DNA of 64,000 nucleotides from NCBI GenBank assembly GCA_945862155.1, contig CAMAXJ010000003.1:1-64000 (forward strand). Direction: 5' to 3'. Below the pieces are notes generated by a model. The model was not told the origin of the DNA. It worked only from the letters and a program-made list of their open reading frames with translations, and searched no databases. Numbering within the stretch: position 1 is the first letter of the stretch; each line of letters opens with the position of its first letter. Shown here one piece after another: positions 1,808 to 1,992 of the stretch. The position numbers and the translations under genes are program-made. The DNA is from Rhodoluna limnophila. Lineage in GTDB: Bacteria > Actinomycetota > Actinomycetes > Actinomycetales > Microbacteriaceae.

Positions 1808-1935
1808 CTTCCGGCAACGTGTCTAGAGCCCTTGTATCACAAGGAAACTAGACCCCCGGAAGACCGAACAAGAACTTAAAAACTTCACTCGTTTTTTAGG
1901 TTTGTCGTTATTCGACACGCCCGAGCGCGGGTGTG
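1808..1935 (+). promoter_or_regulatory. Candidate structured 5' leader of the S10 operon
   Basis: Nested stems CTTCCGG/CCGGAAG, GTCTAG/CTAGAC, CCTTGT/ACAAGG (1808-1862) plus CACGCCCG/CGGGTGTG (1916-1935). Confidence 0.6.
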
Positions 1936-1992
1936 GGATGCAGGAAATAAAAGCTTTAGAACCAACCATTTACGAAACGGAAGTGAGTCCAG

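Follow-up and report, generated by a model that had tools for sequence, protein, structure and literature searches.

The leader of the S10 operon in Microbacteriaceae almost certainly contains a conserved RNA element, a three-way junction at the 5' end of the transcript, and its fold, position, strand and family-wide conservation are established by sequence comparison among relatives. In the window, the whole 64,000-nucleotide stretch of Rhodoluna limnophila DNA analysed here, the complete junction leader lies on the + strand at 1771–1870, as delimited by a match of the junction model R3 and by the minimum-energy fold. It precedes rpsJ (1993–2301, +; ribosomal protein S10, Pfam PF00338), the first gene of the S10 operon, which is followed by rplC from 2313 (PF00297) and rplD from 2973 (PF00573). 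With a promoter upstream, an inferred transcription start and rpsJ-rplC-rplD downstream, the element sits in the 5' UTR of a ribosomal-protein operon. It is a structured RNA of the ribosomal-protein-leader kind and, as far as Rfam 15 and open-access papers show, new and undescribed.

Hairpin 1 and its conservation in relatives

The earlier note had described three nested stems upstream of rpsJ, and these are present to the base (7 + 6 + 6 = 19 bp). Together they form hairpin 1 (1808–1862, +), which was read from the sequence, from covariation and from the match of a genus model. On the + strand, P1 joins CTTCCGG (1808–1814) to CCGGAAG (1856–1862; 7 bp), P2 joins GTCTAG (1821–1826) to CTAGAC (1848–1853; 6 bp), the apical stem joins CCTTGT (1830–1835) to ACAAGG (1839–1844; 6 bp), and the core sets GUG (1819–1821) against CC within 1853–1855. 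The remark that hairpin 1 lacks a T-tract and is no obvious terminator also holds, since no intrinsic terminator was detected on the + strand between 1771 and 1993, the sole + strand match lying before the promoter at 1653–1667. Folded alone, 1771–1880 reached -32.6 kcal/mol (z = -2.9; 2 of 200 shuffles equally good), and the fold of 1780–1960 beat 197 of 200 shuffles (z = -2.3). Such merely moderate z values would suit a functionless chance hairpin or terminator. However, single-sequence fold scores are weak by themselves, so that the question had to be decided by comparison among relatives, and family-wide covariation, a constant position with respect to the promoter and the missing T-tract make this reading virtually untenable.

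For the comparison, rpsJ was found in 190 of 200 same-family genomes, in 26 of 60 same-genus genomes (many of them incomplete) and in 80 named contigs, mostly of Micrococcales; upstream regions were taken from 192 rpsJ loci, and 126 rpsJ leaders were compared for the junction. In nearly all Microbacteriaceae, TCACTGCCAGGCAGTGCATAG-(variable hairpin)-CTAGGCCGCGGGYAGCAGAACA is present about 170–380 nt before rpsJ. The window hairpin is a diverged form, CCACTTCCGGCAACGTGTCTAG-...-CTAGACCCCCGGAAGACCGAACA, and same-genus sequences are intermediate. Within the variable helices lies a core that is near-invariant in dozens of genera; it sets GGCAGUGCA against GGCCGC and includes a conserved U that bulges out, flanked by two G-C pairs. 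Alignment A1, which comprises 31 family members outside the window's genus, contains P1 as CTGCC/GGCAG, CTACC/GGTAG, CCACC/GGTGG, CTTCC/GGAAG, CTCCC/GGGAG and CCGCC/GGCGG, and P2 varies likewise. Its cells are paired at 96.5%, with 41 double-change cells and none of 500 shuffles as good, and pairing falls to 46% when the partners are slid by one column. In A2, built from 21 same-genus sequences other than the window, eight pairs changed on both sides (e.g., GGC/GCC to GAC/GTC in L129). RNAalifold independently predicted the same long-range arm. The stems of hairpin 1, for which a covariation check had been proposed, covary in these alignments made without the window. A local palindrome on the 5' side, CACTGCC/GGCAGTG, was considered as an alternative helix and rejected, its covariation not exceeding that of shuffles.

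The family hairpin model R1 misses the window. The genus covariance model R2, made from same-genus sequences other than the window, matches 1805–1870 in a search of 801 nt (23.3 bits, E = 3.2e-7, or about 3e-5 when scaled to the whole window; next best match in the 801 nt, 3.8 bits), all model E-values given here being rough because the calibration was shortened. The same model also matches the nearest relative, L113. On the whole window with default speed filters R2 did not list the site, and a full-model search was needed. With R3, 1771–1870 is the best match in 20 kb, a weak one (14.2 bits, E 0.019). Because a model built without the window recognises 1805–1870, the stem in the window goes beyond chance. 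In this small-genome lineage, P1 has lengthened to 7 bp, part of the core is lost and strong helices are kept; since the core is partly lost, ligand binding may be weak or absent in this species.

Across the family, R1 matches 32 of 40 Microbacteriaceae genomes, essentially once per genome, with a second, weak match in two (E 0.006 and 0.01). For 22 strong matches the location of rpsJ was available for comparison, and every one of them lies upstream of the gene on the same strand, within about 500 nt. Eight genomes were missed, among them two from the window's own genus and several of 0.9–1.5 Mb, which suggests that fast-evolving, streamlined lineages have diverged copies or none. An order-level sample searched with stricter filters yielded matches in 9 of 149 genomes, all Microbacteriaceae, and a class sample searched with R3 yielded a single marginal match (E 0.07), to a genome from outside the family; no clear match was seen in the other sampled families. 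The proposed Rfam scan was run as well: neither the window nor any of 13 relatives reached the gathering score of a family in Rfam 15, and a lax search of the leader returned chance matches only, so no described Rfam 15 family matches the leader.

The promoter and the three-way junction

As a leader element, hairpin 1 proved to be conserved, covarying RNA in the S10-operon 5' UTR, but an incomplete one, being one arm of the three-way junction. The closing helix P-1 pairs GTTC (1772–1775, +) with GAAC (1866–1869, +), with an alternative register of AGTTC (1771–1775) and GAACT (1872–1876). The remaining hairpin, P0 (1786–1802, +), pairs GGGCTT (1786–1791) with GAGCTC (1797–1802) and was read from the minimum-energy fold and from P0 covariation in relatives. 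The minimum-energy fold of 1771–1880 is the junction itself. In longer folds P-1 loses to other pairings, and an A/U-rich hairpin at about 1872–1902 competes with the closing helix; this hairpin of the window is not kept in leaders L113 or L003.

P-1 can form in all 126 leaders, GTTC pairing with GAAC, GAGC, GGAC or GGGC downstream of hairpin 1. Seven leaders with GTTG carry CAAC, CAGC or CGAC as the partner, which amounts to C-G to G-C swaps in P-1. Tails exchanged between the two groups seldom fit: only 28 of the 833 combinations of GTTG with a GTTC-group tail can pair. P0, located between GTTC and hairpin 1, is variable in sequence, and all six of its basal pairs change on both sides. Alignment A3 of the whole junction, which like model R3 is based on 47 relatives from genera other than the window's, has 1168 cells, of which 93.8% are paired; double changes affect 13 pairs and 144 cells. 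The covariation score was reached by none of 500 shuffles; these controls disregard relatedness, but slid structures, which retain it, fail. G-U cells outnumber A-C cells by 80 to 19, an excess indicating that the + strand RNA is the conserved entity.

The predicted promoter (1736–1765, +) consists of a -35 box TTGCAT (1736–1741), an 18 nt spacer and a -10 box CAGGAT (1760–1765), and the conserved -10 spacing places the predicted transcription start at about 1771 (+). Among 129 leaders examined, 126 had a recognised -10-like hexamer, and in all 126, which carry the element, the hexamer ends exactly 6 nt before GTT[CG]. This constancy is informative because the regular expression permitted 5–7 nt. 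A TTG[CA]N -35 box lies 17 nt (63 leaders) or 18 nt (63 leaders) upstream of the -10. The earlier note had regarded a start downstream of 1862 as evidence against a leader hairpin; the promoter lies upstream of hairpin 1, and so does the start deduced from it.

Further features were noted in and around the leaders. Some 45–75 nt before rpsJ, a second conserved hairpin, GCGTCCAATGC-(variable stem)-GTANGACGC, adjoins the ribosome-binding site in 53 of 125 leaders by a strict pattern (L020, L014 and L027 among them); it is absent from the window, and its inner stem looks covarying by eye. Between hairpin 1 and rpsJ, 80 of 125 leaders (e.g., L002 and L065) contain a conserved box like TTGACAGATAAACAGTGGTGC followed by CAGTAGTGCTAC, which is also absent from the window; no -10 was seen by eye at the right distance from this box. 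A boxA-like sequence after the junction (AGAACTTAAAA in the window, AGAACTCAACA in the rrn leader) is not kept in relatives and was judged to be due to chance. Upstream of the rpsJ promoter, a 130-aa open frame without a Pfam match (1286–1678) follows an L-asparaginase II gene. Positions 1–183 hold the end of a lysine/alanine-rich frame (AKKVAKKV...KKKK stop) resembling a histone-H1-like or HU-type basic tail; behind it come a hairpin (CCCCCAAGG...CCTGGGGG) and a T-rich stretch at about 207–240.

The second hairpin and a predicted WhiA site

A hairpin spotted by eye can turn out to be the DNA site of a protein, and the second hairpin is a case that calls for this caution. Its sequence is present as the earlier note described, CACGCCCG (1916–1923) and CGGGTGTG (1928–1935) with one G-U, but its pairing is not kept in relatives. 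The two hairpins are separated by 53 nt. Compensatory change occurs in none of the eight pairs among 47 distinct sequences, the pair C1916-G1935 being C-C in 43 of the 47 and G1919-T1932 being G-G in 31, and the hairpin was rejected as an RNA structure. The 5' half of the second hairpin had been used to select the 47 sequences, so its invariance rests instead on the 184 of 192 rpsJ leaders in which CGACACNCCCG was found. More widely, GCGACACGCCCGANNNCGNGGGTCGG precedes rpsJ across Micrococcales and neighbours, from Cellulomonas to Actinomyces. The same motif stands in reverse orientation (CGACACGCCCGAGTGCG) before rapZ-whiA in the window's own genome, where whiA (Pfam WhiA_N) is located behind rapZ.

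WhiA recognises a GACAC core in Streptomyces venezuelae, where rpsJ is a ChIP-seq target with a peak 75 bp from the start codon (PMC3781837). GAYACRCY occurs before rpsJ in many phyla, and WhiA represses the rpsJ operon in Mycoplasma gallisepticum (PMC11701221). The window shares this core upstream of rpsJ as GACACGCC (1914–1921), within a probable WhiA DNA-binding site at 1912–1937 (+) that overlaps the second hairpin (1916–1935); the core ends 71 nt before the rpsJ ATG. The second hairpin is therefore very probably a WhiA operator, a prediction from the motif for which binding is known from Streptomyces and Mycoplasma. The site in Mycoplasma is within the promoter, whereas the window has it some 140 nt past the predicted start.

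A WhiA operator at rpsJ accounts for the second hairpin only. Since such a site is very probably present in the same leader, hairpin 1 might likewise be a DNA element (an operator or cruciform), or the whole leader might be bound by WhiA. Nevertheless, the strand-polar G-U excess, the long-range P-1 and the variable-length loops with compensating stems are signatures of RNA, and hairpin 1 is very unlikely to act in this way.

In many Microbacteriaceae another WhiA-like core, CGACACGCCCGGGTTGCA, precedes the rpsJ promoter and extends into its -35 box. In the window's genus GACACGCC is often found in the promoter spacer, where the window has a degenerate GAAACGCC (1743–1750), and many leaders contain two WhiA-like sites roughly 190–280 bp apart. 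For L214 (G205) and L218 (G256), a WhiA-like motif was observed in reverse orientation near a PhoH/PIN-type-looking gene, named by eye, and in one of these genomes such a motif lies 4.7 kb before rpsJ, at what by eye may be the str operon.

Possible function of the junction leader

The suggestion of an actinobacterial ribosomal-protein autoregulatory leader stands for the RNA, its place and its conservation; as to the ligand, we infer a protein of the S10 operon, perhaps L4. The S10-operon mRNA of Microbacteriaceae would open with a cis-acting three-way junction at about nucleotide +1, whose invariant core may be a protein-binding site. An S10-operon product in excess over rRNA would bind the core and lower the expression of the operon, with L4 as the first candidate, as in Escherichia coli, and L3 and S10 as further candidates. 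The WhiA DNA site in the same leader may add a separate transcriptional layer. Autogenous control of this kind, making the junction a ribosomal-protein leader by function, is considered reasonably probable and the most likely reading, on three grounds: L4 controls the S10 operon of E. coli in this manner, comparable leaders have been predicted in Firmicutes, and the element is essentially restricted to the region before rpsJ. The hairpin model R1 had no match in the 16S and 23S rRNA of one same-genus genome, and no mimic at the level of rRNA sequence was seen. Resemblance to the rRNA site of the regulator is typical of many ribosomal-protein leaders but not obligatory.

Without an intrinsic terminator, and with the arm about 130 nt from the start codon, a classical attenuator is less likely. 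The junction would more likely act through mRNA folding, ribosome loading, Rho-dependent or pausing-based termination, or mRNA decay. That it represents a new regulatory RNA class of the whole family, folding from the first nucleotide of the transcript and acting on the polymerase just past the promoter (pausing or escape) jointly with the downstream WhiA, and not as a translational leader, is decidedly doubtful. The junction begins at the predicted +1 and encloses the 5' end, and the window copy retains strong helices despite the partial loss of its core, as would be expected if it governed mRNA stability or the processing of the 5' end (e.g., against RNase J or RNase E) without a specific regulatory ligand. 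Pure stability structures require no invariant sequence, yet the core is near-invariant and the element is essentially confined to rpsJ, which leaves such a role a minor possibility. The close promoter, the lack of a terminator, the invariant core and the absence of a detected rRNA mimic would also be compatible with an RNA that binds a small molecule, NusA, NusB-S10 or another protein and serves as a transcription pausing or antitermination signal. However, matches of the element were confined to the region before rpsJ and revealed no further regulon member, and relatives share no conserved boxA-like sequence after the junction, and a ligand or signal of this sort is regarded as unlikely.

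Autogenous control by an S10-operon protein would place the junction beside known systems, as S10 operons are under leader-RNA control in other phyla (PMC10931766; PMC7247131). The S10 leader of E. coli, which responds to L4, is likewise a structured 5' UTR before rpsJ of the same operon and is autogenous (PMC10931766). It has an intrinsic attenuator hairpin, in contrast to the terminator-free junction of Microbacteriaceae, and is gammaproteobacterial, whereas the present element is a 5'-terminal three-way junction in Actinobacteria; the E. coli-type regulatory site is reported to lack conservation even among gammaproteobacteria (PMC10931766). The leaders predicted upstream of S10 genes in Firmicutes are also comparison-derived ribosomal-protein leaders, but belong to another phylum and are set apart here by the Rfam non-match rather than by a residue-by-residue comparison of structure. 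Within the same phylum, the actinobacterial L31 and L17 leaders (PMC7247131) are ribosomal-protein leader RNAs of other genes, and the control of mycobacterial rpsO (S15), studied in vivo, concerns another gene as well (PMC8470358).

The control of ribosomal-protein synthesis in Actinobacteria is little known, and the S10 operon starts the main cluster of ribosomal-protein genes. The comparison provides a precise RNA with a predicted start, a fold and an invariant core, carried by cultivable Microbacterium, Leifsonia, Agromyces, Cryobacterium and Rathayibacter, and resolves one leader into an RNA layer and a predicted WhiA DNA layer. The leader RNA probably allows the cell to sense and adjust its own ribosomal-protein production.
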